Virus record (IMG/VR): IMGVR_UViG_3300018933_000008
Coordinates: 1 to 46,067 of that record
DNA length: 46,067 nucleotides
Direction: 5' to 3' (one strand)
Origin: a virus
The notes beneath the pieces were generated by a model. That model saw only the letters and a list, made by a program, of their open reading frames with translations, ran no database searches and was not told where the DNA came from. Below are positions 3,841-28,454 of the stretch, one piece after another. The translations under genes were made by a program, and so were the position numbers. Every line of letters begins with the position of its first letter. Within the stretch, counting starts at the first letter, position 1.

Positions 3841-3867
3841 TTGACAGCCGGTTAGAGTTGTGATCCT
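3841..3867 (+). promoter_or_regulatory. 27-bp element, copy 1, before gpW
   Basis: First of three identical 27-bp sequences that begin TTGACAGCCGG and end TTGTGATCCT. TTGACA starts exactly 36 nt before the GTG of gpW, the place a -35 box would occupy if transcription began at the GTG. An extended -10-like TGTGATCCT follows after a short 15-bp spacer. There is no Shine-Dalgarno sequence between the element and the GTG. It probably drives the head genes past the cargo insertion. Confidence 0.65.
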
Positions 3868-3876
3868 GCCAATGGC

Positions 3877-4098
3877 GTGGCGTGGACCGACCAGGAATAC
3901 CAAACGCTGAAAGCCGCTGTGGCCAGCGGCGTGTCCTCGATCTCGTTTGGTGGGGGGCCCTCTAACCGATCCGTCACTTATCACGGGCTCGAGCAAATGC
4001 GCGCGCTGTTGAAGGAAATGGAACAGCAGCTATTTCCCGAGCTGCACCAGGGCCGCCAATCGCGCCGCTTCGTTTCGTTCTCGAAGGGTTTCCGATGA
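3877..4098 (+). CDS. Head-tail joining protein, gpW-like
   Basis: 73 residues (MAWTDQEYQTLKAA..., SFGGGPSNRSVTYHGLEQM, then a Lys/Glu/Leu-rich helix and a basic tail), which matches the small lambda gpW type that closes the portal channel and lets the tail attach. Its place just before the gpB-type portal also matches lambda. The start is GTG, 9 nt after the 27-bp element. An ATG at 3872 is out of frame. The stop overlaps the portal ATG by 4 bp. Confidence 0.8.
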   Translation: MAWTDQEYQTLKAAVASGVSSISFGGGPSNRSVTYHGLEQMRALLKEMEQQLFPELHQGRQSRRFVSFSKGFR

Positions 4099-5684
4099 AT
4101 GATCGCGCCCGCGTGGGGCTGTCGTGGTTCGATCGCGCCCTGATCAGCATCGCTCCGGCATGGGGCCTCAAGCGTGTGCGCGCCCGCGTGGCGGCTCGCA
4201 TGTATGCGCGCCACTATGAAGCCGCGGCGGCGAGCCGGCGGACCGTGGGCTGGCGAAAGCAAAGCACGGATGCGAATGCAGCGCTCGTGACCGATCAGGC
4301 AACCTTGCGTGATTTGTCGAGAGACTTGCGCCGCAATAACGGATGGGCGAAGCGAGGCGTTCAGGTGATCGTCAACAACACCGTTGGATGGGGGATCTCT
4401 CCAAGGGTGACGGGGCCGCGTTCGAAGAAGGCGATTCAGGCCTGGAAGGCGTGGGCAGACTCCCCCAACTGTAACTACGACGGGACCATGCCGTTTGCTG
4501 GCATGCAGGCGCTGGCCATGACCACCATCGTGGAAGCGGGCGAGGTCCTAATCGTCAAAGAGGCTGCCAACAAAAACGACGCACTCCCCGTGCCCTTCCG
4601 CATCCGAGTGCTTGAGCCTGATTACCTCGACACTGCCAAGAGTTGCACCGGCCCGAACGGTAACCCAATCATCAGCGGCATTGAGTTGGATGGGCGAGGC
4701 CGCAGGGTGGCCTATTGGATTTACGACAAGCACCCCGGGGCGCTGCTCTGGACAGGGGCGAACGAAAGCAAGCGCGTTGACGCAAGTCGGGTGATCCACT
4801 GCTACGAAGTCAACCGGCCCGGCCAAATGCGCGGGGTTCCTTGGCTTGCGTCCTCCATCGCGCGGCTGCACGACTTCGACGATTACGAAGACGCAAGCTT
4901 GATGCAGCAGAAAATCGCCGCTTGTTTCGGCGCTTTTGTGTCGGAAGCGGACGATGGGACCCGAACAGAATTGGGGCCTGATGGTCTTCCCGTCGCGAAG
5001 GAGGATCCGGTGGAGAGTCTGGAGCCAGGCATGGTTTCGTACCTCAATCCCGGAGAAACGGTTAGCTTCGCGCAGCCTCCCGCCATTCCAGGGCAGGACA
5101 TGTTTTCGCGCAACAACCTCCGGCGCATAGCTGCAGGTATGGGCGTGACCTATGAGGATCTGACCGGCGACTACAGCCAAGTGAATTTCTCAAGCGCGCG
5201 GATGGCGCGCCTTGCCCACTGGGCGAACGTTCACAGCTGGAGGTGGAACATGCTCATTCCCCAGATGTGTGAAGGAGTTTGGAAGTGGGTCATGGAAGAT
5301 CTCGCGACGTTGAGTGGCTGGCGCGAAATTCCAAGGGCGGAATGGTCGCCGCCCCCTATGCCGATGTTGGATCCTGACAAGGAGGGCCTGGCCTACACTC
5401 GCCTGGTTCGCTCCGGCATGCAGAGCTTAAGCGGCGCCCTTCGCGAGCTAGGCGAGGATCCCGAAACGCACTTCGCCCAGATCGCCGCCGACAATGAGCG
5501 ACTGGACAGGCTCAAGATCGTGCTCGACTCTGATCCGCGGCGAACAACTACAGGTGGGCAAGCTCAGCAGGTGGCGTCCGCTCCCGCAAAGGAGCCGCCT
5601 CCAAAGGAGGAAGAGCCAGAGCCCCCAGAGCCGGAAGAAGAGCCGGAAGCGGAAGAAGAAGATTCGGACGGCGCCGAATCGTAG
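4095..5684 (+). CDS. Portal protein, lambda gpB family
   Basis: 529 residues. It forms the dodecameric portal at one capsid vertex, used for DNA entry and exit. The basic N-terminus followed by LVTDQATLRDLSRDLRRNNG, RVLEPDYLDT, EVNRPGQMRGVPWLAS and YEDLTGDYSQVNFSSARMAR is characteristic of lambda-type portals. The last 40 residues are Glu/Pro-rich and acidic, probably disordered. It is coupled to gpW by an ATGA overlap. Six nt after its stop begins the second copy of the 27-bp element. Confidence 0.95.
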   Translation: MNDRARVGLSWFDRALISIAPAWGLKRVRARVAARMYARHYEAAAASRRTVGWRKQSTDANAALVTDQATLRDLSRDLRRNNGWAKRGVQVIVNNTVGWGISPRVTGPRSKKAIQAWKAWADSPNCNYDGTMPFAGMQALAMTTIVEAGEVLIVKEAANKNDALPVPFRIRVLEPDYLDTAKSCTGPNGNPIISGIELDGRGRRVAYWIYDKHPGALLWTGANESKRVDASRVIHCYEVNRPGQMRGVPWLASSIARLHDFDDYEDASLMQQKIAACFGAFVSEADDGTRTELGPDGLPVAKEDPVESLEPGMVSYLNPGETVSFAQPPAIPGQDMFSRNNLRRIAAGMGVTYEDLTGDYSQVNFSSARMARLAHWANVHSWRWNMLIPQMCEGVWKWVMEDLATLSGWREIPRAEWSPPPMPMLDPDKEGLAYTRLVRSGMQSLSGALRELGEDPETHFAQIAADNERLDRLKIVLDSDPRRTTTGGQAQQVASAPAKEPPPKEEEPEPPEPEEEPEAEEEDSDGAES

Positions 5685-5689
5685 GAGTG

Positions 5690-5716
5690 TTGACAGCCGG
5701 TTAGAGTTGTGATCCT
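5690..5716 (+). promoter_or_regulatory. 27-bp element, copy 2, before protease/capsid
   Basis: Identical to the copies at 3841 and 16021. It extends to 29 bp (AG added) in common with copy 3. TTGACA starts exactly 36 nt before the GTG of the protease/capsid gene, with no Shine-Dalgarno sequence between. A dedicated promoter for the most abundant virion protein would make sense. Function is inferred. Confidence 0.65.
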
Positions 5717-5725
5717 AGGCTACGG

Positions 5726-7729
5726 GTGCCGATAAAGGACTCAGTCACAACCCACGACGTCGCGCCACTGAATCTGCGCGCCGAGGTTGGTCATGTAGAT
5801 GAGGAGAAGCGGACGGCGGAGATCATATGGACCACCGGCTCGCGTGTGAAGCGTGGCGGGTTCTGGAGTGATCCATTTGAAGAAGAGCTCAGCCTGGATC
5901 CCAAGCACGTCCGAATGGGACGGATCGGAGGAGGCCGCGCGCCTCTTCTGAATAGCCATCGGTCGGACAGCTTGACCGACGTGATTGGCATCGTTGAAAG
6001 CGCCAAACTTGGCAAGCTTCCAACGGCGATCGTTCGCTTCGCTCGCGACCCCATAAGCGAGGAAATCTTCCAGAAGGTTAAGGACGGAATCATACGCAAC
6101 GTTAGCGTTGGGTACCGCGTCTATCGCCTTGAGCTTGTTGAGGAAAAAGAGGGCGCACTGCCCGTCTATCGCGCGACCGATTGGGAGCCGATGGAGTTGA
6201 GCATGGTTCCAATAGGCGCCGACGATGGGGCCTATGTTCGCGCGGGCGGAATTGAAACAAACCCGTGTGTGATCGTTAGAAAACAGGAGATCTTTCACAT
6301 GCCCCCAGAGAATGAGAAGAAGGAAGCGCCCGCTGTTGTCGACGCCGCACGCGCAGTTCCGCCCGTAGACGTTGAGAAGGCCAAAGCCGAAGCACGCGCT
6401 GAAGAGCGAACGCGGGCCACTGACATTGAGAAGTGGGGAAAGGTCCTCGGGCGTTCAGCTGAGTTCATTTCCGAGCACGTGAGGGCTGGGACGACTTTGG
6501 AGAACTTTCGCGAGTTGGCCCTTGCTGCAAGGGAGCAGGAAATGGTTCCAGTGGTAGCAGACGCCGGCCGCATTGAAACCGTCAAAGGCGGCGACAGCCG
6601 AGACAAGTGGCTTCGCGGCGCAAGCGATTGGCTGATCCGACGCTCAGCCACCGAGTCGCTGGTCGTCAACTATGCTCGCATGAAGGGAGAGACGGTAAAG
6701 ATCGACCCGGGCGAGTTCCGTGGCTTGACGTTCACCGAGCTAGCTCGCCAATCGCTCGAGCGCGCGGGCATCAACGCTCGCGGCATGGACAAGATGGAAG
6801 TTCTCGGCAAGGCCATGACCTTGCGGACCGGCTACAACGCAACGTCGGATTTTCCAATGCTGCTCGAAGGCGTCCTTCATCGGATTATTCTCGCCGCATA
6901 CGCTATCCAGCCTGACACGTGGAACAAGTTCGCGAAGACAGGGAGCGTTTCCGACTTCAGGAAACACGGCAGGCTCCGGCTTGGCTCCTTCGGACGCTTG
7001 CAAAAGGTCAACGAACACGGCGAGTACAAAAATCTCGATCTTCCTCTCGGTGAGCAGGAAGATATCAGCGCTGACACCAAGGGAAATATGGTTGGGTTGA
7101 CTCGGCAGATGCTGATCAACGACGACATGAACGTTTTTTCGACGCTGGGCGCACAGTTGGGTCGCATGGCCAAACGGTCAATCGAGTTGGACACCTACGA
7201 CCTTTTGGCGCTCAACAACGGACTCGGCCCCATCATGAACGATGGCAAGACGCTGTATCACGCAGACCACGGGAATATCAGCCCAGCCGCTGCTCTTAGC
7301 GTGGCTGCTCTGGATGCCGATCGGGTTCTCATGGGCGTGCAACGTGACATTGGCACCAATGAGATTCTGGACCTAGAGCCAGCGATCTTGCTTGTTTCCA
7401 AAGCACAGGGTGGCCTAGCTAAGAACATCAACCAGGCCCAGTACGATATTGACCCCGGGGTGAACGCCAAGATGCTGATCCCAAACAAGTCGGCGGGCAT
7501 GTTCACCACGATCATCGACACGGCCAGAATCTCCGGCAACCGTCGATACATCTTCGCTGACGTCGCTGTTGCCCCAGCGCTGGAGGTCGTCTTCTTGGAT
7601 GGCAAGGAAGACCCTTACCTAGAGACCAAAGAGGGTTGGCGCATCGACGGAGTCGAGTGGAAGGTACGCCTCGATTACGGCGTTGGCGCTATCGATTACC
7701 GCGCCACTGTAACGAACGCTGGCCAGTAA
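5726..7729 (+). CDS. Prohead protease / major capsid protein fusion
   Basis: 667 residues. Residues 1-175 form an HK97-type (S78) prohead protease: LLNSHRSDSLTDVIG carries the likely catalytic His78, NVSVGY the likely Ser127, and ELSMVP ends the domain. Residues 192-280 are charged and helical, like a scaffolding (delta) domain. From about 290 to the end is the major capsid protein (TYDLLALNNG, LYHADHGN, IDGVEWKVRLDYGVGAID). Protease-capsid fusions are known in tailed phages. Self-cleavage would release the capsid subunit. The GTG start lies 9 nt after the 27-bp element. An internal start at 6299 is listed separately. Confidence 0.9.
   Translation: MPIKDSVTTHDVAPLNLRAEVGHVDEEKRTAEIIWTTGSRVKRGGFWSDPFEEELSLDPKHVRMGRIGGGRAPLLNSHRSDSLTDVIGIVESAKLGKLPTAIVRFARDPISEEIFQKVKDGIIRNVSVGYRVYRLELVEEKEGALPVYRATDWEPMELSMVPIGADDGAYVRAGGIETNPCVIVRKQEIFHMPPENEKKEAPAVVDAARAVPPVDVEKAKAEARAEERTRATDIEKWGKVLGRSAEFISEHVRAGTTLENFRELALAAREQEMVPVVADAGRIETVKGGDSRDKWLRGASDWLIRRSATESLVVNYARMKGETVKIDPGEFRGLTFTELARQSLERAGINARGMDKMEVLGKAMTLRTGYNATSDFPMLLEGVLHRIILAAYAIQPDTWNKFAKTGSVSDFRKHGRLRLGSFGRLQKVNEHGEYKNLDLPLGEQEDISADTKGNMVGLTRQMLINDDMNVFSTLGAQLGRMAKRSIELDTYDLLALNNGLGPIMNDGKTLYHADHGNISPAAALSVAALDADRVLMGVQRDIGTNEILDLEPAILLVSKAQGGLAKNINQAQYDIDPGVNAKMLIPNKSAGMFTTIIDTARISGNRRYIFADVAVAPALEVVFLDGKEDPYLETKEGWRIDGVEWKVRLDYGVGAIDYRATVTNAGQ
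6299..7729 (+). CDS. Internal-start product: scaffold domain plus capsid protein
   Basis: Within the fusion gene, an in-frame ATG at codon 192 is preceded by AGGAGA at 6285-6290 with an ideal 8-nt spacer. This is a better ribosome site than anything at the GTG of the full gene. It falls precisely between the protease domain and the scaffold-like domain, so it would give a 476-residue protease-free capsid precursor in excess over the full fusion. The logic resembles nested C/Nu3 in lambda. Seen: site and frame. Inferred: use in the cell. Confidence 0.6.
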   Translation: MPPENEKKEAPAVVDAARAVPPVDVEKAKAEARAEERTRATDIEKWGKVLGRSAEFISEHVRAGTTLENFRELALAAREQEMVPVVADAGRIETVKGGDSRDKWLRGASDWLIRRSATESLVVNYARMKGETVKIDPGEFRGLTFTELARQSLERAGINARGMDKMEVLGKAMTLRTGYNATSDFPMLLEGVLHRIILAAYAIQPDTWNKFAKTGSVSDFRKHGRLRLGSFGRLQKVNEHGEYKNLDLPLGEQEDISADTKGNMVGLTRQMLINDDMNVFSTLGAQLGRMAKRSIELDTYDLLALNNGLGPIMNDGKTLYHADHGNISPAAALSVAALDADRVLMGVQRDIGTNEILDLEPAILLVSKAQGGLAKNINQAQYDIDPGVNAKMLIPNKSAGMFTTIIDTARISGNRRYIFADVAVAPALEVVFLDGKEDPYLETKEGWRIDGVEWKVRLDYGVGAIDYRATVTNAGQ

Positions 7730-7739
7730 GAGCTGCTGC

Positions 7740-7749
7740 GTTCCGGAAC
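7740..7749. repeat. 10-bp palindrome GTTCCGGAAC
   Basis: Perfect palindrome in the 59-bp gap between the capsid and decoration genes. Too short and without a T-run for an intrinsic terminator. It could be a protein site or an mRNA-stabilising hairpin. Confidence 0.25.
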
Positions 7750-7788
7750 CATTCGTTAGCGACTGACTGAGAGAGCAAAGGAAATTTC

Positions 7789-8124
7789 ATGATCAATTAC
7801 GTACAACCGGGAGACGTCTGCACGTTCACCGCGCCCGTTGGTGGCGTGGTGTCTGGCAACGCATACCTGATCGGCTCGCTGTTCGTTGTGGCGGCGATCT
7901 CCGCGCTAGCGGGCGAGGAGTTCGAAGGGAAAATCAACGGCGTGTTCAACCTGCCAAAGGCAGCGGGCGCGCTGGCTGAAGGTGCTCCCGCCTATTGGGA
8001 CAACGATGCCAAGGTGGTCACCGGCACCAACACCGCGGACAGGCTGATCGGGGCCATCACAAAGGCCGCGCTCGCCGGTGACCTGCGGGTCAACGTCCGA
8101 CTCAACGCCATCGCCGTCGTATAA
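7789..8124 (+). CDS. Capsid decoration protein, DUF2190 family
   Basis: 111 residues, MINYVQPGDVCTFTAPVGGV... with the Gly/Ala-rich beta pattern of DUF2190, the family that holds small capsid-stabilising proteins found right after the major capsid gene. It has a good ribosome site (AAAGGAA before the ATG). It would bind the outside of the expanded capsid. Confidence 0.8.
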   Translation: MINYVQPGDVCTFTAPVGGVVSGNAYLIGSLFVVAAISALAGEEFEGKINGVFNLPKAAGALAEGAPAYWDNDAKVVTGTNTADRLIGAITKAALAGDLRVNVRLNAIAVV

Positions 8125-8129
8125 CCGCC

Positions 8130-8459
8130 GTGGACTTCGCCGCCCTCGTTGAAAACCTCGATCGCGCCGTCCTAGGTCACCTGGGCGGCGTCTCGATCGT
8201 GTTTCAACCTGAGGCCGGCGCAGCTGTCCCGGTGAAAGGCATATTTGATCCGCGCTACGTGTTGTCAGACCAGGGCAATTCGGACGTGGAGCAAGTAAGC
8301 CCAGCAGTTTGGCTGAAGCTTTCAGATCTCCCACCTCATCCGTTCCGCGGCAGGCCGCTGGTCATCGTTGACGGCGTTACATACAACGTTCAAGAACGCC
8401 GTACCGATGGGCAGCTGGGCGGCTCGGTTGTTCTGATACTGAAGCGAGCCGTGGTCTAA
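8130..8459 (+). CDS. Head-tail connector, gpFII-like
   Basis: 109 residues, GTG start 5 nt after the decoration gene. MDFAALVENLDRAVLGHLGG, then a beta-rich domain with VKGIFDPRYVLSD and the C-terminal YNVQERRTDGQLGGSVVLILKR, matches the lambda gpFII attachment-protein pattern. It would sit under the portal/gpW and form the platform to which the tail binds. Ends directly against the next gene. Confidence 0.75.
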   Translation: MDFAALVENLDRAVLGHLGGVSIVFQPEAGAAVPVKGIFDPRYVLSDQGNSDVEQVSPAVWLKLSDLPPHPFRGRPLVIVDGVTYNVQERRTDGQLGGSVVLILKRAVV

Positions 8460-8978
8460 ATGCACCAGCGCATGAAGATCCGAAAAAAGGTGCTTCAGAT
8501 GCTGGAGGCTGGCCACACTGGCGCCGCCGTCCGCGACAAGATCGAAGCGCTCAACTGGGAGGACCTGCCTACTTTGACGGTCTACTGCCCAGACGACACG
8601 GTCCAATCTGACAGCGTTGCCACCGCGCCGCGCGAGCTAACTCATGACCTGACTCTGGTTATTGAGGGTTTGGTGGCGCCGGCTGAGAATCCGTGGGACG
8701 CGATGGACGACCTGTCCGAGCGGATAGAAGACATCATGGAGCGGGATCCGTTTCTTGGCGACACGGCTGCCCAGTCGATCCTGGCCGACACGAATATGGA
8801 AGTGCAGGACGATGGCGAGCATCACCTTGGCTTCCTGTCCATGACCTACGCCGTCACCTACAGGACGAGGGTCAAGGTCCACGATTCCGCCTTCGACGAT
8901 TTCAACACTGCTGCCGTGACGTACCGACACGATGGGTCCGACGCCCACGACACAATCATTTTGCAGGAGCCAACATGA
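8460..8978 (+). CDS. Tail terminator, lambda gpU-like
   Basis: 172 residues. MKIRKKVLQMLEAGHTGAAV, LPTLTVYCPDDTV, LTHDLTLVIEGLV and LGFLSMTYAVTYRTRV follow the gpU pattern, the ring that caps tube polymerisation and joins the head. ATG at 8460 follows the previous stop directly. ATG at 8472 is an alternative, and neither has a clear Shine-Dalgarno sequence. In lambda gene Z lies between FII and U. Here it is absent from this place, and a gpZ-like gene is found at 40507. Confidence 0.75.
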   Translation: MHQRMKIRKKVLQMLEAGHTGAAVRDKIEALNWEDLPTLTVYCPDDTVQSDSVATAPRELTHDLTLVIEGLVAPAENPWDAMDDLSERIEDIMERDPFLGDTAAQSILADTNMEVQDDGEHHLGFLSMTYAVTYRTRVKVHDSAFDDFNTAAVTYRHDGSDAHDTIILQEPT

Positions 8979-9193
8979 TCAAAGTTAAGCCGGCCGAAGG
9001 CCTCCGGGTGCGTGACCCCCTGACTCATCAAGTGCTGCCGATCGAGGGCGCCGAAGTCACTGACAATAATTTTTGGCGACGTCGGCTAGCTGCCGGCGAC
9101 GTTGTGCTCATCGAAGAGGCCGCTCAAGCGGAAGCGCAAAACGAGGAACGCGAGGAACACCATGACGATCACGTACAACCAGATTCCAAATAG
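8975..9193 (+). CDS. DUF2635-like small tail-module protein
   Basis: 72 residues, MIKVKPAEGLRVRDPLTHQVLP, then EVTDNNFWRRRLAAGDVVL and an acidic/His-rich tail. This is the small protein usually found immediately before the sheath gene in Mu-like phages, of unknown function. The start overlaps the preceding stop (ATGA), and the end overlaps the sheath gene by 32 bp. Confidence 0.75.
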   Translation: MIKVKPAEGLRVRDPLTHQVLPIEGAEVTDNNFWRRRLAAGDVVLIEEAAQAEAQNEEREEHHDDHVQPDSK

Positions 9194-10634
9194 TCTCCGC
9201 GTCCCGTTCGTCGCTGCAGAATTCGATGCGTCGAATGCTTCACAGGGCCCTGCTTTGCTCGCGTATCGCGCGCTCCTGATTGGGCAAATGCTTCCCTCCG
9301 GGACTGGCCTGCCGAACAACCTTTACCGGGTCACCAGTCCTGACCAGGTGGGAAAGCTTGCGGGTCGTGGCTCCATCGCTCACCGGAACGCAATCGCATA
9401 TTTCAAGGTCAACAAGAGCACGGAGACGTGGCTTGGGTTGCTGGAGGATGATGGCGCTGGCGTGGCTGCCTCTGGGACTTTGACCATCGCAGCAGCCGAC
9501 GCAGGCGCGGGCACGATCGCCCTCTATTTGGGCGGCGAGCGAATCACCGTGGGCGTGGGCGCTGGGGCGACTGCTGCCAGCATCGCCACGGCGGTCGCCG
9601 CAGCCATCAATTTGAAAACGGACCTGCCCGTTACTGCCACCTCGGCCGCCACCGTCGTGACGGTGACCCATCGCCACAAGGGCTTGGTGGGCAATTCCTA
9701 CAACATTCGGACCAGCTACCGCGATGACGAATCGTTGCCAACGGGCGTAACGGTGACCGTAGTCCCGCTGTCCGGTGGTACTGCCAACCCGTCGCTCACG
9801 GACCTTATTGCAGCCTTGGGTGATTCTTGGTTTCACGTGGTGGCCAACCCATATACGGATGCCACCAGCCTGAGCGCTCTTGAGGATGAATTTGCCGATC
9901 GCTTCGGTCCGATGCGCATGATCGACGGCGTCATCATCAGTTCCGCCGCTGGCAGCTTCGGAACGTTAGTGACTTTGGGCAACACCCGAAACAGCCCTCA
10001 CTCGGTAATCGTGGCGCAGCCGGGGCAGAACCCGCTCACCCCGCCGAGCGAATTCGCCGCCGAGGTCGCCGGCCTGGTGGCTTACCATGGAGCGGCTGAA
10101 CCTGCGCGGCCCTTCCAGACGCTCCCGCTAAAGCACACTTTGCCGCCTGCGGAAGTCGATCTGTTCATGACCAAAGAACGCAACGAATTGCTATTTGATG
10201 GCATCGCCACCACACGGCCAGCCGCGGGCGGCGGTGTGCAGCTGGAGCGCCTGATCACGACCTACCAGACCAACGCCTCGGGTTCGCCAAGCACCGCTTA
10301 CCTCGACCTGACGACGTTGCTAACACTGATGTATCTCCGCTATTCCTTCCGTGTTCTTTGGCAAGAAAAGTACCCTCGCCACAAGTTGGCCGACGATGGC
10401 ACGCGCTTGGGAGCTGGGCAAAAGGTGATGACGCCAAAGCTTGGCAAGAGCGAAGCCATAGGTTGGTTTCGCGAGATGGAAGAAATGGGACTGGTCGAGA
10501 ACTTCGACCAGTTCAAGGCAGACATCGTTGTGGAGAGGAACAAGGTCGATCCCAATCGACTCGACCTTCTGCTCCCGCCAGACCTGATCAATCAGCTGAT
10601 CGGAACGGCCATATCCATCCCCTTCCGGCTGTAA
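9162..10634 (+). CDS. Contractile tail sheath protein, Mu gpL-like
   Basis: 490 residues. It forms the outer tail sheath whose contraction drives the tube into the host. The N-terminus (TYNQIPNSLRVPFVAAEFD) and the C-terminal YPRHKLADDGTRL and WFREMEEMGLVENFDQFK segments are typical of Mu-type sheaths. The middle (about 110-240) is the Gly/Ala/Thr-rich surface domain. ATG at 9162 follows GAGGAACACC. The next gene is the tube, as expected. Confidence 0.9.
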   Translation: MTITYNQIPNSLRVPFVAAEFDASNASQGPALLAYRALLIGQMLPSGTGLPNNLYRVTSPDQVGKLAGRGSIAHRNAIAYFKVNKSTETWLGLLEDDGAGVAASGTLTIAAADAGAGTIALYLGGERITVGVGAGATAASIATAVAAAINLKTDLPVTATSAATVVTVTHRHKGLVGNSYNIRTSYRDDESLPTGVTVTVVPLSGGTANPSLTDLIAALGDSWFHVVANPYTDATSLSALEDEFADRFGPMRMIDGVIISSAAGSFGTLVTLGNTRNSPHSVIVAQPGQNPLTPPSEFAAEVAGLVAYHGAAEPARPFQTLPLKHTLPPAEVDLFMTKERNELLFDGIATTRPAAGGGVQLERLITTYQTNASGSPSTAYLDLTTLLTLMYLRYSFRVLWQEKYPRHKLADDGTRLGAGQKVMTPKLGKSEAIGWFREMEEMGLVENFDQFKADIVVERNKVDPNRLDLLLPPDLINQLIGTAISIPFRL

Positions 10635-10653
10635 GACTTAGGAGATAAACATC

Positions 10654-11022
10654 ATGGCGTCGCAACGTAGAGGCGGAATTATCCAGGTCCAGATTGACGG
10701 CGAGGTGCTGGACGTCAAGGGCAATTGGTCCTACAACCTCGGCCGGCCAAAGATGGAAGGCATCATCGGGGCCGACACCGTTCACGGCTACACCGAAAAG
10801 CCCCAGATCGCATTCATCGAAGGTGAAATCACTGACAGCGATGAGATGGATCTCGAAAAGCTGGTGACCATGAAAAATGGAACCGTCACGCTTGACCTGG
10901 CAAACGGAAAGATGATCGCCCTTCGTCGGGCGTGGTTTGCAGGTGATGGAACCGGCAACACCGAAGAAGGAAATATCGAAGTCCGCTTTGAAGGCAAAAG
11001 CGCAGAGGAGATCAAGCCGTGA
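10654..11022 (+). CDS. Tail tube protein, Mu gpM-like
   Basis: 122 residues. GGIIQVQIDGEVLDVKGNW, GRPKMEGIIGADTVHGYTEK and IEVRFEGKSAEEIKP match the Mu-type tail tube family, stacked hexamers that form the inner conduit. AGGAGATAAACATC precedes the ATG. The stop overlaps the chaperone GTG by 4 bp. Confidence 0.9.
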   Translation: MASQRRGGIIQVQIDGEVLDVKGNWSYNLGRPKMEGIIGADTVHGYTEKPQIAFIEGEITDSDEMDLEKLVTMKNGTVTLDLANGKMIALRRAWFAGDGTGNTEEGNIEVRFEGKSAEEIKP

Positions 11023-11318
11023 GTGATTCCGTGACAATCGAGCTCACGTCGCCCATCAAGGCGGGTTCTGAGCTCATCGAAAGGTTGACGTTCCGACAGC
11101 CCAAGGCGAAGGACCTCCGAGGCATTAGCCTTACGATAGGGGACGGCGGGTTCCGCCTTGAAATGGACAGCGTGCTCAAGTTGGCCGCGCGATGCTCTGG
11201 CCAGACCGATCACGCCATCGGTGAGCTTTCACTCAAAGACATGACGGAGGTTGGCAAGGCCGTCATGGATTTTATCTTGCCTTCCCAAGAGACTGGCGAG
11301 ACTGGTTTGGCGTCCTGA
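11019..11318 (+). CDS. Tail assembly chaperone (gp41/gpE-like)
   Basis: 99 residues, GTG start overlapping the tube stop. VTIELTSPIKAGSELIERLT, RQPKAKDLRG and LSLKDMTEVGKAVMDFIL follow the pattern of the E/41/14 chaperone family, which coats the tape measure while the tube polymerises. A second frame (-1) stays open past the stop and probably gives an extended chaperone by frameshifting, listed next. Confidence 0.8.
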   Translation: MSDSVTIELTSPIKAGSELIERLTFRQPKAKDLRGISLTIGDGGFRLEMDSVLKLAARCSGQTDHAIGELSLKDMTEVGKAVMDFILPSQETGETGLAS

Positions 11319-11428
11319 TCGCAGACCCGTTCCACGTCCAGCCGTCAGAGCTCTGGGAGATGGACGCCGAGGAGCTGGGCTTCTGGGTCGAGCGTGCGGT
11401 GTGGCGAAGCAAGCTAAACAGTAAGTGA
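11270..11428 (+). CDS. Frameshift extension of tail chaperone (gpE-prime-like)
   Basis: The -1 frame overlaps the end of the chaperone gene and continues with LIADPFHVQPSELWEMDAEE and LGFWVERAVWRSKLNSK to a TGA at 11426. The content is typical of the C-terminal extension of P2/Mu tail chaperones. There is no start codon with a ribosome site. A four-T run (11270-11273), where a Phe codon can re-pair after a -1 slip, is the best slippery position I see, though it is not a canonical heptamer. The exact slip site is uncertain. Confidence 0.55.
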   Translation, partial: FYLAFPRDWRDWFGVLIADPFHVQPSELWEMDAEELGFWVERAVWRSKLNSK

Positions 11429-11435
11429 GGCGACG

Positions 11436-13154
11436 ATGGCCGGCATTGGCGGAAAGAAATATCCCCTATCGATCATCGTCGGCACTGTTGACCGGGCGAC
11501 GGCTGGGCTTCAGAAGATCAATAAGGAGGTCTCGCGCCTAACCGCGCCCGTTCGACGCCTCAACAACCGGCTGAAGGCCCTCGGCGAGGCGTCAGGCATA
11601 TCGAAGGTTGGGGAGCGGTGGACGGCCGCCGGCAAAGCCATGGGCGGGGTGGGTGCGATTGCTGGCAAGGTCGCATTTGGCGTCGGAGCCATTGCTGGCG
11701 CCGCTGGCCTTGGGCTCCACAGCCTCCATGAGATGGTGGAGGAAAACGATGCACTGGCCAAGTCGGCCGATCGCGTGGGTGAAAGCATCGACACTTATGC
11801 TCAGCTGCGCTTCGCCTTCGGGCAGGCCGGCGTTGGTGTTGAAGAGCTCGATGGGGGCATAGGCACGTTTATCAAGTCCCTCGGCCAAGCAAAGGCGGGA
11901 ACCGGAAAGCTCGCCGGGTTCCTAGGCAAGGTTTCCCCTGCGCTCCTCCGCCAGGTTAAAGGGGCGAAGTCCAGCAAAGAGGCCCTGTTTCTCATGGCCG
12001 ATGCCATGAAGAAGATCGAGGATCCTGGAAAGCGTGCTGCACTCGCCGCGGCCGCCTTCGGGGGTTCGGGCGAAAAGATGATCGGCATGCTGGGCGAAGG
12101 CTCGGCCGGCATTAGGGCTTTGATGGAGGGCTTCGCATCGCGCGCAGGTTCGCTCGAGGATACCGCGCGTATGTCTGAGGGCCTGTCGGATCGATTCGGC
12201 GAGCTTCAGGCCTCCATGGTTGGCGTCAAGAGCGTCATCCTCGGCGCACTAGGCCCTACGCTCAATACGTTGATGTTGGACCTCCAGAAGTTCCTCGCGG
12301 ACAACCAGGGCCGGATCAAGGCGTTTGCCGCCGCGTTTGCTGAGAATCTCCCGGGCGCGATAGAAAAGGCCAGGACGGTTCTAACTACCCTGTACGAGGT
12401 CGTGACCAAAGTGTGGTCGGTGATCGGCGGCGCCGAAGGGGCCGGAATAGCGCTGGGCGCGGTGCTTTCGGTAAAGGTCGTGGCTGCCGCTTTGTCAGTG
12501 GCTCAAGCGCTAGGCAGCACCGTGGCTCTGTTTGGCAAGGTGAGCTGGGTCGTCCTCAAGCTCGTGGGCGGCCCCTTGCCCACGCTGATCAGGTTGATGG
12601 GGACAGGGTTGGTGGCGGCCGTGCGAACGCTTGGCACTGCCATTCTCACCACTCCCATCGGCTGGATCATTGCGGGCATCGTGGGGCTGATTGCAGCTGG
12701 CTGGCTGCTCTACAAAAACTGGGACGAAATCAAGTTTGCGTTCGTCGCGATCTGGATAGCCATCACTGAAGCGTTCACAGCCGCGTGGGACGGCATTAAG
12801 GCTGCGGCTGGCTCGGTCGCTGATTGGGTCCTAGAGAAATGGGCCGCCGTTACGGAGGGGATCACCTCCCGCATCACGAGACTGGTTGATATGGCAAAGG
12901 GAGCAGCTTCGTGGCTGGGCATTGGCGATGACACTGCCAGCAGCGGAGGGACTGGGGGCACTGCCGGTGGAACCATGGCGCGCGCGGCGCAGCTCCCTGC
13001 CGCTGCTCAATTTCAGCCAGGCGTTGGTCGGGCAAGCGAAGCGCGCGTGATGGTGGACTTTGCAAACATGCCCAAAGGCGCTCGAGTGTCGTCCGATCCT
13101 AAGTCCAGCGCTGACGTTGATCTGTCGGTTGGCTATCAGATGGGGGCTCTGTGA
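11436..13154 (+). CDS. Tail tape measure protein
   Basis: 572 residues, setting tail length and later passing into the host membrane. A Lys/Arg-rich coiled N-terminus (residues 10-60) is followed by a Gly/Ala segment AFGVGAIAGAAGLGLHSL, a long helical middle, and hydrophobic segments including TPIGWIIAGIVGLIAAGWLL near 415-440, then a Gly/Ser/Thr linker. It is short for a tape measure, so the tail should be short to medium. GAGG precedes the ATG. Confidence 0.9.
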   Translation: MAGIGGKKYPLSIIVGTVDRATAGLQKINKEVSRLTAPVRRLNNRLKALGEASGISKVGERWTAAGKAMGGVGAIAGKVAFGVGAIAGAAGLGLHSLHEMVEENDALAKSADRVGESIDTYAQLRFAFGQAGVGVEELDGGIGTFIKSLGQAKAGTGKLAGFLGKVSPALLRQVKGAKSSKEALFLMADAMKKIEDPGKRAALAAAAFGGSGEKMIGMLGEGSAGIRALMEGFASRAGSLEDTARMSEGLSDRFGELQASMVGVKSVILGALGPTLNTLMLDLQKFLADNQGRIKAFAAAFAENLPGAIEKARTVLTTLYEVVTKVWSVIGGAEGAGIALGAVLSVKVVAAALSVAQALGSTVALFGKVSWVVLKLVGGPLPTLIRLMGTGLVAAVRTLGTAILTTPIGWIIAGIVGLIAAGWLLYKNWDEIKFAFVAIWIAITEAFTAAWDGIKAAAGSVADWVLEKWAAVTEGITSRITRLVDMAKGAASWLGIGDDTASSGGTGGTAGGTMARAAQLPAAAQFQPGVGRASEARVMVDFANMPKGARVSSDPKSSADVDLSVGYQMGAL

Positions 13155-14377
13155 GCTGGCGAGATGATCTAGGGCATGTGCGGATGCCAGACGGACGCGA
13201 GCTTATAGGCGCGTCCTTCCGTGGCGTCCCATTCTTCGTGAGCTCGGCCGAGCGCATCGGTGGGCGGCGAACCGTCACGCATGAGTTTCCGCTTAGGGAC
13301 GACCCATACATCGATGACCTCGGCCGCAAGTCGAGGACCTTTCCGATTGACGGATACCTTCTGGGCGATGGCTACGTGCGCCACCGCGAGGCCTTGGCAT
13401 CCGCCCTTGAGGATAGCTCAGGGCCGGGGGAGTTGGTTCATCCGTACTATGGAGTAAGACGCGCGATCTGTTCTGATTTCTCCATCAAGGAGAGCTCCGC
13501 AGAGGGCGGCATTGCGACGTTCTCCATCACGTTCCAAGAAGCCCCAGACAGGCCGACCGCACCCACGGAAGAGATCGACTTATCGGCGCAGTTAGAGGAG
13601 GCGGCGGAGGCTGCATACGCGGCCGCGCGCGCCGAGCTGGTCGAGGAATTCGATGCGTTTGGGCTCGCAAACTTTGCGCTTGATAGCGCCGCGGCTGCTC
13701 TGGAAACGGCAACGGCCGCCATGTATGCGGCCCTTGGGGCCCTTGTCGAGTCGGCCCAGCCGCTCGCCCGACTCAATCAAGACGTCAAGGGGCTGGTGGA
13801 AAAATCCAGCGCATTGGCGAAGGCGCCCGGGGACGCGTTCGACGGATTCGCGAGCGTGCTCAGGGCGCAGATCGCAGAGCTCGCGGACCCTGTGCCCAAT
13901 GCCTTGCTTTGGGCACTGTTTCAGATCTTCGATAAGGGCCTCGGCGCGCCGGTGATCGTCTCGACTCCCACTCGGATCCGGGAGCGAAGAAACCAGGACG
14001 CGCTAAACGCGGCGATCCGAAGGATCGTCATCATAGAGGCGGCTCGCAACGCCCGAAGGATCGCCTTCCCGACAATCGAAGACGCTACGGCCGCTCGCTC
14101 GCGGATCATCAAGCGTCTGGATACCACCCTGACTGGCGCCGGCTACATCGCTTATCCCGCGATGGCCGACCTGCGGGCGGCGCTCGTGTTGGCGGTGCCC
14201 GGTGAGTCCGTCTATTCACGGATCATCACCGTAGAACGAAACAGCAGCGTCCCGTCCTTGCTCCTCAGCTACCAGCTGTTTGGCTCTGTAAATCAAGAGC
14301 AAGACCTCATAGCGCGTAACAAGATCTCTCATCCCGGTTTCATGTCCGGACGCCTCAAGGCCCTTTCCAATGGCTAA
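13151..14377 (+). CDS. Baseplate/DNA circularisation protein, Mu gpN-like
   Basis: 408 residues, GTG start overlapping the tape measure stop. The N-terminus MSWRDDLGHVRMPDGRELIG, GASFRGVPFFVSSAERIGGR and RTVTHEFPLRDDPYIDDLGR is the hallmark of the DNA_circ_N family. The middle (about 145-240) is a long Ala/Glu-rich helical segment. In Mu-like phages this protein belongs to the baseplate hub and links the tube end to gpP. Confidence 0.85.
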   Translation: MSWRDDLGHVRMPDGRELIGASFRGVPFFVSSAERIGGRRTVTHEFPLRDDPYIDDLGRKSRTFPIDGYLLGDGYVRHREALASALEDSSGPGELVHPYYGVRRAICSDFSIKESSAEGGIATFSITFQEAPDRPTAPTEEIDLSAQLEEAAEAAYAAARAELVEEFDAFGLANFALDSAAAALETATAAMYAALGALVESAQPLARLNQDVKGLVEKSSALAKAPGDAFDGFASVLRAQIAELADPVPNALLWALFQIFDKGLGAPVIVSTPTRIRERRNQDALNAAIRRIVIIEAARNARRIAFPTIEDATAARSRIIKRLDTTLTGAGYIAYPAMADLRAALVLAVPGESVYSRIITVERNSSVPSLLLSYQLFGSVNQEQDLIARNKISHPGFMSGRLKALSNG

Positions 14378-15449
14378 CGATGTGCGCCTCATTGTAGGGG
14401 GCAAGCGATACGGCGGCTGGAAGTCCATAAGGATCTCCCAGTCTATGGAGTCCATCGCTGGATCCTTTGAGCTGGGCGTCAGTGACAGGTGGGCGGAACA
14501 AAGCGAGCCATGGCCGATCGTGGAGGAGGACAATTGTCGCATCGAGATTAACGGCAGGCCGATCATTGATGGCTACGTTGACCGGCGGTCGATTGGGCTT
14601 AGCGAAGGGGATCGGTCCCTGACTGTTTCGGGGCGAGATCGCGCGGCGGCGCTTGTCGACAATTCGGCGGTGATGAAGAGCTGGTCCTTTAAGAACGTGG
14701 ACGCGTTGGATGTTGCCAGAAAGATTTGTGAGCCCTTCAATGTGCCTGTTTCCCTGCAGCCGGGCCTTAAGCTGCCGAAGGTTCAGGCGAAAGTGGCCAT
14801 AAGCCCCGGCGAAGATGCATTCGGAGTGCTTCAGAAGGTGGTGGGCGCAGCTGGCGCGCTGGTTGTCAGCGATGGAGCTGGAGGAATTCTCCTGACCAGG
14901 ACCGGGAGTAAGCGCGCGGGCCGGCTCGTTCAAGGTGACAACGTTAAAAACGCCTCCGTCGAATACGACGGCGCTGATCGCTTCCACAAATACATTGTGG
15001 TCACCCAAATCCCCGGGACTGACAAGGCTTCGGGCAAAGCTACGAAGGTGCGCGCCGAAGCTATCGACGAAGGCGTGAGGCGCACGGACCGTGTCTTGCT
15101 CGTCCAGTCTGAGACGGGCGTCAACAACGAGTTTGCGAAGCGGCGAGCCGACTGGGAAGCACGCAAGCGCGCGGCGAAGGCGGAGCAGGTTTCTATTACG
15201 GTGCGCGGGTGGCTGCAGCCTAATGGCGAGCTTTGGACGTTCAATACATTGGCCGAGGTCCACGCCCCAGCGATCGGTGTTAACGGCACCATGCTGATCT
15301 CGCAAGTCGACTATGACCTGGGGCCTGGGGGAGAAACCGCAACCCTGTCCCTCATGCGGCCCGATGCGTTCTCCCCGGAGCCTAGAGCCGTCGTCAAGAA
15401 GGGCGGCGCGGGCACGAGGTGGAAAGAGATCGCAAAGGGGGCGCTGTGA
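14370..15449 (+). CDS. Baseplate hub protein, Mu gpP (gp44)-like
   Basis: 359 residues. VRLIVGGKRYGGWKSIRISQ, SMESIAGSFELGVSDRW and SLTVSGRDRAAALVDNSA are typical of the gp27-like hub that forms a trimer between tube and spike. It overlaps gpN by 8 bp and gp45 by 4 bp, in the Mu order gpN, gpP, gp45. Confidence 0.9.
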   Translation: MANDVRLIVGGKRYGGWKSIRISQSMESIAGSFELGVSDRWAEQSEPWPIVEEDNCRIEINGRPIIDGYVDRRSIGLSEGDRSLTVSGRDRAAALVDNSAVMKSWSFKNVDALDVARKICEPFNVPVSLQPGLKLPKVQAKVAISPGEDAFGVLQKVVGAAGALVVSDGAGGILLTRTGSKRAGRLVQGDNVKNASVEYDGADRFHKYIVVTQIPGTDKASGKATKVRAEAIDEGVRRTDRVLLVQSETGVNNEFAKRRADWEARKRAAKAEQVSITVRGWLQPNGELWTFNTLAEVHAPAIGVNGTMLISQVDYDLGPGGETATLSLMRPDAFSPEPRAVVKKGGAGTRWKEIAKGAL

Positions 15450-16024
15450 ACAAGGAGACGCTTCGCGAGATCGGTATCCTGCTAAGGCCCGTCAAGGTCC
15501 GATTGGCGAACGCGATCGCGCGCGCGGTGGTGAATGCCATCGACGATGAGACGAAGATCCAGACTCTCCGGATCGAGGCGCATAAAGGCGAGGACATAGA
15601 CGATGCCGAGCGGTTCCAAAACTATGGCTTTACAAGCGCTCCGCTCCCCGGCGCCGAGGCGATCGCGGTTTTCCCAAACGGTGATCGCGCCCACCCTCTT
15701 GTTGTTGCTGTCGATGATCGGCGCTATCGCTTTAAGGGAATGTTGCCCGGCGAGGTGGCCGTATATACCGACGAATCTGGCCACACCATACAGCTTTTGC
15801 GGGGCAAGAAAACGGTAATGGGCGCGGATGACATCAGGCTAGGGAGCTCGGGCGCCAGCGATCCGGTTGTCAGAATGAGCGACCTTCAAAAGGTGATCGA
15901 CAAAGTGAACCTACACACCCACCTCTACATTCCGGGGCCCCCACTGACCACGCCAGTCCAGACGTTGCCGCCCGCCGTTCCCATGCCACCGGCGACCGGA
16001 TCAGACAAGGTCAAAGCGGATTGA
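15446..16024 (+). CDS. Baseplate central spike, Mu gp45-like
   Basis: 192 residues. The OB-like N-terminal part (YGFTSAPLPGAEAIAVFPNG, VVAVDDRRYRF) is followed by a beta-stranded spike with SGHTIQLLRG and an apex with HTH (His157, His159), the H-x-H motif known to bind iron at the tip of P2-like spikes. GTG at 15446 is chosen because it overlaps the gpP stop. A GTG 27 nt earlier would lengthen the overlap for no gain. Its TGA lies within the TTGACA of the third 27-bp element. Confidence 0.85.
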   Translation: MNKETLREIGILLRPVKVRLANAIARAVVNAIDDETKIQTLRIEAHKGEDIDDAERFQNYGFTSAPLPGAEAIAVFPNGDRAHPLVVAVDDRRYRFKGMLPGEVAVYTDESGHTIQLLRGKKTVMGADDIRLGSSGASDPVVRMSDLQKVIDKVNLHTHLYIPGPPLTTPVQTLPPAVPMPPATGSDKVKAD

Positions 16025-16047
16025 CAGCCGGTTAGAGTTGTGATCCT
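16021..16047 (+). promoter_or_regulatory. 27-bp element, copy 3, before gp47
   Basis: Identical to the copies at 3841 and 5690, with TTGACA starting exactly 36 nt before the GTG at 16057. The stop codon of gp45 is embedded in it. In Mu the gp46 gene would sit here. In this genome gp46 is found 3.7 kb downstream, so the element occupies the vacated junction. Promoter or translation-initiation function is inferred. Confidence 0.65.
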
Positions 16048-16056
16048 AGCGTGTGG

Positions 16057-17115
16057 GTGCCGTTCGCCCGCCCGTCACTATCGGATCTCATAACCCGGAT
16101 CCGGGCAGATCTGTACAGTCGTCTGGCGAACCAGGGGCCGCTGCTCAGGCGCGCCGTCGCGAACGTGGTGGCGCCGGTATGGGCCGGGGCTACGCACATG
16201 CTCCATGGCCATCTGGACTGGATCGCCTTGCAGCTATTCCCCGACACGTCGGAAGAGGTGATGCTGCGTCGCCAAGCCGCCATGTATGGGATTTTTCCAT
16301 CTGCGGCCGAGTTCTCAGCTGGCCCAGTGCTTGTTGCCGGAGACGCCGGAGCGATCGTGCCAGCAGGTTCGATCCTGAAGTCTGCGGCCGGCCAATCCTA
16401 CGAGGTGATCGCGGAAGTAACGCTGCCCACCTTCGACCTGCGAGTAAAAGCGGTTTTAGCGGGCAAGGCTGGCGACCTTGAGCCTGGCGAAACGCTGTCC
16501 TTCGAAACGCCGATCCCGGGCGTGGAATCCGAGACGACGGTCGACGTTCCAGGCCTGCTTGGCGGAGAAGATGAAGGCGACCTGGAGAGCCTTCGCACGC
16601 GCCTTCTGCAGCGGTTGCAGGAACCTCCCGAGGGCGGATCTGACGCTGACTATAAAGCTTGGGCGCTTGCTGTTCCCGGCGTCACTCGGGTTTGGGTTTT
16701 CCCCCGCGAAAACGGCCTGGGCACGGTCGTGGTGCGGTTCGTTGTCGACAATGAGTCGGAGATAATCCCTACAGCGCCGAAGGTGGCCGAGGTTCAAGCT
16801 GCGTTAGACGCCGAACGGCCAACGACAGCAGAGGTTACGGCGCTGGCGCCAATCCCACTCTTGATACCCTTCGATATCCGGCTAACGCCAGACAACTCCA
16901 CAACACGGGCGGCCGCGCTCGCTGAGCTTCGCGACTTGATGTTCCGCGAAGGAGCGGCGGGAAACGGTTTGGGTCAAGGGAAGATCTTGCTTTCGCGAAT
17001 GCGGACCGCAATTGCGGCCGCGGGCGTAACTGACTACCAATTGCTTTCACCAGTTGCGGATGTGGTGCCCGGTCTCGGCCAGCTGCCGGTAGTGGGGGCC
17101 ATCACGTGGGAATAG
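16057..17115 (+). CDS. Baseplate wedge protein, Mu gp47 / gpJ-like
   Basis: 352 residues. VPFARPSLSDLITRIRADL, HGHLDWIALQLFPDTSEE, the beta-rich middle and LAKRLQ-like EEGDLESLRTRLLQRLQEPP, then VWVFPRENGLGTVVVRF match the baseplate J family (T4 gp6-like wedge). GTG at 16057 is preferred to GTG at 16051 because it restores the exact 36-nt spacing from TTGACA seen at the two other elements. The end overlaps gp48 by 10 bp. Confidence 0.88.
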   Translation: MPFARPSLSDLITRIRADLYSRLANQGPLLRRAVANVVAPVWAGATHMLHGHLDWIALQLFPDTSEEVMLRRQAAMYGIFPSAAEFSAGPVLVAGDAGAIVPAGSILKSAAGQSYEVIAEVTLPTFDLRVKAVLAGKAGDLEPGETLSFETPIPGVESETTVDVPGLLGGEDEGDLESLRTRLLQRLQEPPEGGSDADYKAWALAVPGVTRVWVFPRENGLGTVVVRFVVDNESEIIPTAPKVAEVQAALDAERPTTAEVTALAPIPLLIPFDIRLTPDNSTTRAAALAELRDLMFREGAAGNGLGQGKILLSRMRTAIAAAGVTDYQLLSPVADVVPGLGQLPVVGAITWE

Positions 17116-19778: not shown

Positions 19779-20629
19779 TGGCCACCTATCAGATAGAGTT
19801 TCTGTCGCTTTCGCCGCCTGCAGGCGCTGCAGATGCGGATCCACCTGCGATCACGTTCTCGCCGCTAGCGGGTGCTGTTATCCCGCCGACCGACGTCGTG
19901 ACCATTCAGGTCACAGACGCGAGCCCCATTACTTCTCTGTTTGTGGCCGTTCAATTTCTCGGTGGGACGTGGGAGATCGTTCACGATGGCGCGAGCTTCA
20001 CTCCGCGCTTTGCGGCCGGGAGCTCCGGTGGGACTCCTGAAAACCGGGTCTTGGGGATCGCGTTTCCAGGCGGTTGGCCTGCGGCTCCCGTGTTCAAAGT
20101 GTGGGCTGGCGACGTGCATGGAAACCTTGCGCAGGCGTCTGCCGCCTACGCCTTGCCGGCGCTCGTGCCTTCGTCGAGCGAGAGTCTGAGCGCATTCGAT
20201 CCATACCTCGCGACCGAAGGACTTCGGACCGCGGTCATCATCTCGCTGTTCAGTGACCGTCGCGCGGACGATGGGTCAACGGTGCCGGCGGGCGACGGGG
20301 ATCTGCGCGGCTGGTGGGGTGATGCATTCAGTTCGACTCAAGGCGACCGAATAGGGTCCCGCTTGTGGTTGCTAGACCGATCGACGATCACCGCCAACCT
20401 GTCCCAGCGCGCTCAGGAATACGCGAAGGAAGCGTTGGCGTGGATGCTCGAGGACAACGTGGCCAGCAAGATCGACGTGTCAGCCGCCGTCGTAGGACGC
20501 GACAGGCTCGACCTTACGATCGAAATCACTCAGCCCCAAGGCGATAGCGTGTCTTTTCGGTTTGCTCACGTCTGGGAAGCCGAGCGCGCCCAACGGTTTG
20601 ATCTCTCCATCTTTGAGGCTGCAACATGA
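19778..20629 (+). CDS. Mu gp46-like wedge protein with extra N-terminal domain
   Basis: 283 residues. The C-terminal part (from about residue 140) carries the GP46 pattern: TAVIISLFSDRRA, DLRGWWGDAF, RIGSRLWLLDRST, AQEYAKEALAWMLEDNVAS and LDLTIEITQPQGDSVSFRF. In Mu gp46 is only this part and lies between gp45 and gp47. Here it is displaced behind two receptor-side genes and fused to an N-terminal Ig-like beta-sandwich (residues 1-130: PPAITFSPLAGAVIPPTDVV, TSLFVAVQFLGGTWEIVHDG). The extra domain may link wedge and fibre. The gene is coupled on both sides by ATGA overlaps. Confidence 0.75.
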   Translation: MATYQIEFLSLSPPAGAADADPPAITFSPLAGAVIPPTDVVTIQVTDASPITSLFVAVQFLGGTWEIVHDGASFTPRFAAGSSGGTPENRVLGIAFPGGWPAAPVFKVWAGDVHGNLAQASAAYALPALVPSSSESLSAFDPYLATEGLRTAVIISLFSDRRADDGSTVPAGDGDLRGWWGDAFSSTQGDRIGSRLWLLDRSTITANLSQRAQEYAKEALAWMLEDNVASKIDVSAAVVGRDRLDLTIEITQPQGDSVSFRFAHVWEAERAQRFDLSIFEAAT

Positions 20630-23600: not shown

Positions 23601-24336
23601 TAACATGCTTATCGGCGCATCGTCCGCTCAATTCAATATCACGCACTCTGCGATTCTGAAGGGCACTACCACGACGAACGTGGCCATCATTCGGTGCATG
23701 GGCAGCGCGGTAATCGGAGGCGGTTGCTATATGAACATCGCTGTAGCGCCTCTTGCCGGGACCGGGATCATCACAATCGGCAACAATGGGATAACGCAGA
23801 TCCGCCGCGCCTACTTCGACGGCGGCGCTAACGTCAGGGTGTCCAGCGGTGTGATGTGGTGCAACGTGCGCGGTTGCGACTTTAACAACCTCGGATCTGC
23901 CGCCGCAGTCCTAATTAACACTGTCCAATACGGGATGTTGCTGTTCATAGACGATTGCCTATCGAGCCACGGCGGCAACACGGGCGTCGTTGTGAGCATG
24001 TCGGCAAACGGGTTCTACAGTCGCGTGATGTTCGGCTTGGCTGTAGCGAACAACCTTGCGTGGACGGGCGCCGATTTTCTGACAGTGGATGGGACGATCA
24101 CCCAAGCCAACCTCAACGCCAGCCAAATGATCGACAGCCGGCAGAACATATTCCTCGGCGCTAGCACGGGCGCACGACTCCGGAGGCTCACCCCGGGCGT
24201 CGACTTCAATACTCCCGTTCTCACAGCCGACCCAGCGAGTCCGATGGATGGCGACGAGTGGACAACGAACATCGGCGGCGTGCGCAGCAAGTGCAAACGC
24301 ATAGGTGGCGTCACATATCGCACGGTGCTTACTTGA
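20626..24336 (+). CDS. Tail fibre with duplicated domains and beta-helix
   Basis: 1236 residues. Two tandem copies of a beta-rich N-terminal domain (about 1-145 and 172-310: LRWPPGAYGDLKARLRR / LRWPRGAYGELAAQVQR, then YYDVWWLDPNG). Then about five 27-residue repeats (VASLNAGPGVAIDASDPVNP type, 327-463), two 89-residue repeats ending GGNAGFLSGADKSKLDGLPS (about 468-646), and a long Gly/Asn/Val-rich stretch that looks like a right-handed beta-helix (700-1180). The C-terminus SPMDGDEWTTNIGGVRSKCK is a common fibre tip. It should recognise the host surface. The duplicated 5-prime DNA is prone to recombination. Confidence 0.85.
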   Translation: MILDCILQDNPLPPAFNSGLLVATKQNLRWPPGAYGDLKARLRRQDGTPVVLTGGILRLAIREVTNVTSAAALVRDATLTNEAQGLAVFQLDSGDTAAFVEGRRYFYDVWWLDASGRRYQVVPHSEWVAAPVVLETGDQPTLGPSLPPGPFEPPVEPELDPLAAIAAAGATGSLLRCIVEDHSVPPPFGSGLMVPTRQPLRWPRGAYGELAAQVQRRNGSPVVLSDGILRLAIRSVTNVAIPPLLIRDAIITNAEQGLAYFVIVTSDTAGLAQGQKYYYDVWWLDPNGERYQVVPISEWLAAPTVLQPADAADIPGATVPLPVWVQSVVAGSGVSVNNMDPRNPVVSATSSAILAGVVAGAGITVDGTDPALPVIAATTTGVVASLNAGPGVAIDASDPVNPTISATGTGVVASLSAGAGIAINSADPVHPVISATATGVVANLVAGAGVSVDATDPVHPVVTAEVTAARLITAGAGLAGGGSLSADRTIDVVANPDGSIVVSSDDVRVGVLATDAQHGARGGGSLHADAVAGGNAGFLSGADKSKLDGLPSAAVAASRQVVAGGGLVGGGDLTADRTFSIAANADGSIVVNADDIGVGVLASDAQHGDRGGGGLHATAVAGGNAGFLSGADKSKLDGLPSSAVVSLGAGAGISVDAFDPLHPSVALAWANVGNGELLRKIGDALAGYPILADWALTGIRYYACDYINGSDSNVGYSDVSATAAGAVAVKTIEKMLSLVPRFGAGRAWVGLVRGNPSGASLTYYRPGSGTVVDDVDLRPFRDYRYYNVRTTRDFAGTVADKELLAPEIVLQGPNSDGSFTVAAGGTTSGISIAAGTLTALPGIAGYRVRFKGVVTAGLANISRNIAYNTTTALQFGETTAIAPAEGEQFFIERPGVIIDNFFSGSGMGGGGGSGFTSTFQAHVAGFRCLQTTLATAFVSGSDLTVDLSFMEFHNRFSCGYVQSVRVAHDYYDELGLSRVSGMGMRVTCNASPNMLIGASSAQFNITHSAILKGTTTTNVAIIRCMGSAVIGGGCYMNIAVAPLAGTGIITIGNNGITQIRRAYFDGGANVRVSSGVMWCNVRGCDFNNLGSAAAVLINTVQYGMLLFIDDCLSSHGGNTGVVVSMSANGFYSRVMFGLAVANNLAWTGADFLTVDGTITQANLNASQMIDSRQNIFLGASTGARLRRLTPGVDFNTPVLTADPASPMDGDEWTTNIGGVRSKCKRIGGVTYRTVLT
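22029..22565 (+). repeat. Two tandem 89-codon repeats in the fibre gene
   Basis: Two successive in-frame units of about 267 bp encode GAGLAGGGSLSADRT... and GGGLVGGGDLTADRT..., both ending in a GFLSGADKSKLDG segment. DNA identity is high in parts (GCGGGATTCTTGTCTGG and GCCGGATTCTTGTCTGG). A repeat-number change would alter fibre length without breaking the frame. Confidence 0.75.
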
Positions 24337-28403: not shown

Positions 28404-28450
28404 CGCGGTACGTTTTCGGTTGCCGCGCGGGACGGTTCGCGGTACATTTT
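28404..28450. promoter_or_regulatory. CGCGGTAC direct repeats, putative operator pair
   Basis: CGCGGTACGTTTT (28404-28416) and CGCGGTACATTTT (28438-28450) differ at one base in 13, with starts 34 bp apart. A shorter match, CGCGGTACG, lies upstream at 28078, and the first 11 bases recur at 3773. The second copy overlaps the -10 box of the early promoter, so a bound protein would block it. Between the two, CGCGCGG and CCGCGCG also form an inverted repeat. Confidence 0.5.
28420..28448 (+). promoter_or_regulatory. Early promoter, apparently leaderless
   Basis: TTGCCG (28420-28425) and TACATT (28443-28448) with a 17-bp spacer form a good sigma-70 type promoter. The expected start, 6-7 nt after the -10 box, is the ATG at 28455 itself, and no Shine-Dalgarno sequence precedes it. 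It would drive 28455 to 30847 and end at the terminator at 31097. Confidence 0.6.
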
Positions 28451-28454
28451 AGGC

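Follow-up and report, generated by a model that had tools for sequence, protein, structure and literature searches.

The window, the whole stretch of DNA analysed here (an IMG/VR virus record, 46,067 bases long), carries on its + strand three identical copies of a 27-mer, TTGACAGCCGGTTAGAGTTGTGATCCT, which is probably a clade-specific phage late promoter from which leaderless or nearly leaderless mRNAs would be made for the virion operons. The copies lie at 3841-3867, 5690-5716 and 16021-16047, and in each of them the first T of the element is 36 nt before a GTG start codon (3/3). The sequence-only reading of this DNA had described three perfect 27-bp elements at this distance from a GTG and had seen no Shine-Dalgarno (SD) sequence in between; both observations were borne out, the former to the exact coordinates and against a chance expectation of 0 (100 dinucleotide shuffles). 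A search of the window with up to three mismatches allowed gave no fourth copy. The bases flanking the element on either side are not common to all three copies, and the identity stops at the element edges. The elements, the genes that they precede, and one further putative promoter are as follows.

3841..3867, + strand: predicted promoter element, copy 1, before gpW (TTGACA 3841-3846; GTGATCCT 3860-3867)
3877..4098, + strand: gpW head-tail adaptor, GTG start (phrog_2545, E 2.4e-12)
5690..5716, + strand: predicted promoter element, copy 2, before the capsid gene (TTGACA 5690-5695; GTGATCCT 5709-5716)
5726..7729, + strand: protease/major capsid fusion, GTG start (phrog_4523, E 1.3e-172; start fits the profile)
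16021..16047, + strand: predicted promoter element, copy 3, before gpJ (TTGACA 16021-16026; GTGATCCT 16040-16047)
16057..17115, + strand: baseplate wedge gpJ/gp47, GTG start, VPFARPSL (phrog_6, E 3.6e-65, from residue 1)
28420..28454, + strand: possible ordinary leaderless promoter, TTGCCG-N17-TACATT-N6-ATG, before an 86-aa ORF at 28455 (a single weak example that may be due to chance)

The window phage is an integrase-bearing myophage that encodes a terminase, sheath, tube, RecE-like exonuclease, and DnaC-like loader. The three GTGs are the correct starts, because the gpW and gpJ profiles align from residue 1 (for gpW, profile positions 1-68 with residues 1-72 of the window protein) and the capsid start fits phrog_4523. 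Elsewhere in the window, a putative tail fibre gene (20626-24336, 1236 aa) contains a direct repeat of 247 nt (22045-22558; 72% identical, period 267), and a cysteine-rich 59-aa ORF (44654-44833), a putative zinc-finger protein, is without a family match.

The exact 27-mer TTGACAGCCGGTTAGAGTTGTGATCCT was not found in IMG/VR, because the sequence of its spacer is free; terminase relatives of the window phage possess diverged copies composed of TTGAC(A), 14 unconserved bases, and GTGATCC(T). Relatives were gathered using a TTGACA-N13-GTGATCCT scan, with many chance hits among the matches listed, and further relatives using protein-guided scans with gpJ and capsid alignments; all are metagenome contigs, in which some starts are ambiguous by a few codons. 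The bipartite pattern was present in 32 of the 41 records searched whole (not a frequency, because some records were chosen for having the pattern) and on one strand only within each record, and a reversed-pattern control in the same 41 records was empty. The longer relatives have three to seven copies, which lead gpW, capsid, tail terminator, tube, gpJ, and a small number of genes further downstream, and across dozens of related contigs the element precedes late virion operons on the coding strand. About four fifths of the gpJ homologues that are at least 50% identical to the query have it. Outside these uncultured phages, Bordetella phages PBb001 and PBb002 (capsid ~50% identical) show, by eye, boxes resembling those of sigma70 in the same three gaps or close to them. 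The relatives recovered by a capsid-guided genome scan for the host, in Marinobacterium, Pseudoalteromonas, and Caulobacter, were all distant; among 398 Pseudomonadota genomes there were nine with strong gpJ matches, and none of the 10 gpJ copies examined was preceded by the element. A description of such a promoter was not found in the literature covered, which takes in few subscription journals.

Geometry was assessed at 302 start codons of homologues (gpW, capsid, gpJ, and terminator) located by tblastn, which lessens motif-based choice, with some loci motif-fetched. At these starts TTGAC lies 36, 37, or 38 nt before the start codon in 24, 21, and 14 cases, respectively, and at any other distance in four cases at most, while TGATC lies 16, 17, or 18 nt before it in 28, 14, and 11 cases. 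Random distances to starts and placement within genes were both looked for in the related phages and neither was seen, the distance being fixed in dozens of them. For 66 non-redundant elements selected by TTGAC at 34-42 nt, so that this half is conserved by construction, TGATC occurs at position 21 in 49 and at position 22 in eight; the halves are separated by 14 nt, less often 15, and spacer positions 10-15 hold almost no information. When the gap is longer, the start codon keeps its distance from TGATC: for gpJ, 16 nt separate TGATC from the start in 16/19 cases, among them every one of the four whose spacer is 1 nt longer. The TCCT begins about 13-15 nt before the start, which is near the -10 distance of leaderless promoters. 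Two conserved halves at near-fixed spacing, with the start codon locked to the downstream half, are what is expected of a promoter in which the -10 determines where transcription begins.

Genes led by the element have largely lost the SD sequence. An SD of at least 4 nt was identified at 11/66 element-led starts vs 51/82 control starts, and one of at least 5 nt at 1/66 vs 20/82, the controls being homologous starts taken from those same contigs, with the element present at one of these starts only. The tube gene provides a natural swap: the element without an SD in contig G041, and an SD without the element in the other tube homologues. A few element-led genes retain an SD, such as GGAGGAG before the capsid gene at L025.

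Putative promoters with what looks like a more conventional -10 occupy the same position before early genes of this lineage. In four of six phages (G041, G042, G009, and G011) TTGAC lies 35-37 nt ahead of the start of the Cro-like gene. The -10 boxes, few in number and read by eye, include TAAATC (G041) and TAGACA (G042), both with TTGAC, and TAGAAG with TTGCGG (G021), others being less clear; these TA-type boxes occupy the place of TCCT in the late element. A relative, contig G045 (IMGVR_UViG_3300037424_001249), has three genes with TTGAC-N17-TAnnnT-N6/7-ATG, one of these promoters directly at the start of a gpZ-like gene, and its capsid promoter is without TGATCC. Because the Cro-like genes and G045 show TTGAC together with TA-type boxes, leaderless geometry appears to be used in this lineage, although such cases are few: over all contigs the count of the TTGAC-N17-TAnnnT type is about what shuffles give without an ORF filter, and over all starts the TANNNT excess at -12/-11 is weak. 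These early promoters agree with the published signature of bacterial leaderless genes (PMC3160421). The late element thus has the geometry of ordinary leaderless promoters and a different -10, with TGATCCT rather than the TANNNT consensus at the -10 place in most of the 66 elements. A C at -11 would normally kill a sigma70 promoter, which counts against the promoter reading.

From the sequence of the element, its fixed geometry, the loss of the SD, its position before particular genes, and its conservation, we infer promoter function, a 5' end at the start codon, and a need for an altered or phage-directed polymerase, with late timing. Region 4 of a sigma factor would read TTGAC(A) as the -35, and the second half, (c)GTGATCCT, would replace the -10, with TG at the extended -10 position and TCCT taking the place of TAnn in the early promoters. 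Transcription would begin ~36-38 nt after the first T, either on the start codon or 1-3 nt upstream of it; ribosomes would then initiate on these mRNAs without an SD. The changed -10 would make transcription dependent on an altered or phage-directed RNA polymerase, and this dependence would confer the late timing. The proposal of leaderless promoters in the sequence-only reading is therefore strengthened by the fixed distance in dozens of relatives, the SD loss, and the TA-type early promoters at equal distance; the alternative that it offered, pairing with 16S rRNA, fares poorly (see below).

The same reading took the perfect conservation of the three copies to signify selection or recent duplication; this conservation is of two kinds. 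TTGAC and TGATC(C), the two halves, recur throughout the clade; the spacer varies freely elsewhere and is identical only in the window phage, which suggests recent copying. Spacers in other phages are 41% identical within a genome vs 36% between genomes. Short-tract copying from one promoter to another, with the conserved halves as anchors, probably made the window spacers identical. The capsid copy may be the source, because the spacer of the capsid element in G011 contains the same nine bases, GCCGGTTAG.

Three other explanations would give the element a different function. In the first of these, already raised from the sequence, GUGAUCC would pair with GGAUCAC near the 3' end of 16S rRNA and recruit ribosomes, as the 7-nt complementarity and the location of the site upstream of SD-less starts might suggest. 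Such pairing, if selected, should extend to G19 and A27, yet G is found at the former in 7/66 elements (C in 46) and A at the latter in 3/66 (T in 39), and it would be broken by the same-place variants GTCATCC, GTAATCC, CTGATCC, and GTGATTC. The start also lies too far away, 9-12 nt after GATCCT, whereas an SD register would have it almost at once, and neither TTGAC nor the 14-15 nt gap is accounted for; we regard this explanation as very unlikely. We would give a little more room to the element being the operator of a phage regulator that overlies the start region, with the real promoter elsewhere, although this too is unlikely. An operator could well be bipartite, strictly spaced, and clade-specific, as the element is, and the clade has a zinc-finger/winged-helix protein found only there. 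However, TTGAC is a canonical -35, the early genes have TTGAC plus TA-type boxes at equal distance, an operator would not need the start codon to be locked to the TGATC side, and the window is without a recognisable homologue of this protein.

The third, a structured RNA leader in which a hairpin with GTGATCCT in its loop regulates translation, appears extremely improbable. Perfect inverted repeats with variable arms do surround GTGATCCT more often than expected (at least 7 bp in 6/66 elements vs 1.2 expected; at least 8 bp in five vs 0.27), but such a stem is missing from most copies and from all three in the window, its register is not constant, RNAalifold on the 66 elements gave no consensus pair, and there was no Rfam match. 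If the promoter reading is right, moreover, the upstream arm is not transcribed from the element promoter. The copies at L026:4387, L038:12902, L025:3414, L034:8718, and L103:9502 are situated inside perfect inverted repeats of 7-9 bp, with variable arms of which the 3' arm reaches the start codon region. A conserved RNA hairpin, prompted by the repeats at L026, L038, and L025, was considered and rejected, these being a minority and none occurring in the window. By analogy with T4 gene e, we would guess that the stems may silence read-through mRNA.

If the element is a late promoter, a modified polymerase or a new sigma specificity for it is possible. Among 18 contigs, no match to the sigma region-2 domain (PF04542) was found, and PF04545 gave one match above cut-off, in G009 only; divergent factors may escape these profiles. 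Tentatively, and with somewhat less than even confidence, we suggest that these uncultured myophages, as a whole clade, express their virion proteins from leaderless mRNAs, that the host main sigma would be unable to open the TGATCCT -10, and that a phage factor, as yet undescribed, would redirect the polymerase. The candidate for this factor is a zinc-finger/winged-helix protein next to the late operon, or another protein in those phages without it. This protein of ~112-138 aa (the G021 frame is longer) combines a Cys2-His-Cys motif with a MerR-like winged helix, and in G009, G021, G041, G042, and G043 its gene is directly upstream of the gpZ-like gene. One locus is L417:10982-11317, with homologues in G009, G021, G042, and G043. 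An IMG/VR scan recovered eight loci, namely those of the five phages just listed, a sixth with the element, and two short contigs without it; the protein is apparently confined to the clade. No homologue was found in the window or in G045, and a PDB fold search with a model of the protein gave weak MerR-like matches, none significant. We therefore treat it as a lead, not a result, with respect to reading the element. The gpZ-like gene is the most widely conserved in the clade outside the structural module; in the window its product is encoded in the early half (40507-41082; weak Minor_tail_Z/phrog_27), and it is present also in G045.

Virion proteins are abundant, and their mRNAs normally carry strong ribosome-binding sites. 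If our reading is true, structural operons fired from start-codon promoters would be a clear example from nature of leaderless translation at high output, and the conservation of a C in place of the flipped A of the -10 would suggest that polymerase specificity can be changed by an undescribed route. The element consensus is precise enough for finding further late genes and for reporter testing.

Phage late promoters read by a modified polymerase are familiar from SPO1 (gp28 and gp33-34). The T4 late promoters, which involve gp55, are likewise read by a modified polymerase (PMC3014915). Like both, the element is short, repeated, located before late genes, and unusual in its -10; unlike both, it has the canonical TTGACA as its -35, no sigma factor encoded by the phages was recognised, and the predicted leader is 0-3 nt. 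At T4 gene e, late promoters are located inside a translation-silencing hairpin (PMC3014915), which resembles the minority of relatives with the promoter inside an inverted repeat and differs from the window copies, which have no such repeat. Leaderless genes in bacteria have a TANNNT signature ~12 bp before the start (PMC3160421); the element shares with these promoters a -10 region ~12-13 nt before the start, TTGACA at -35 distance, and a missing SD, but its -10 reads TGATCCT, the second position of the -10 being C, and it is confined to late virion genes of a phage clade. In Cluster K mycobacteriophages, the SAS/ESAS system includes a 13-bp repeat with AGGAG in the ribosome-binding site position (PMC3203893). 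As there, the element is repeated, asymmetric, and fixed before starts in a phage clade, with inverted repeats at some copies; unlike SAS, it has a -35/-10 layout and replaces the SD, and its sequence and place are different.
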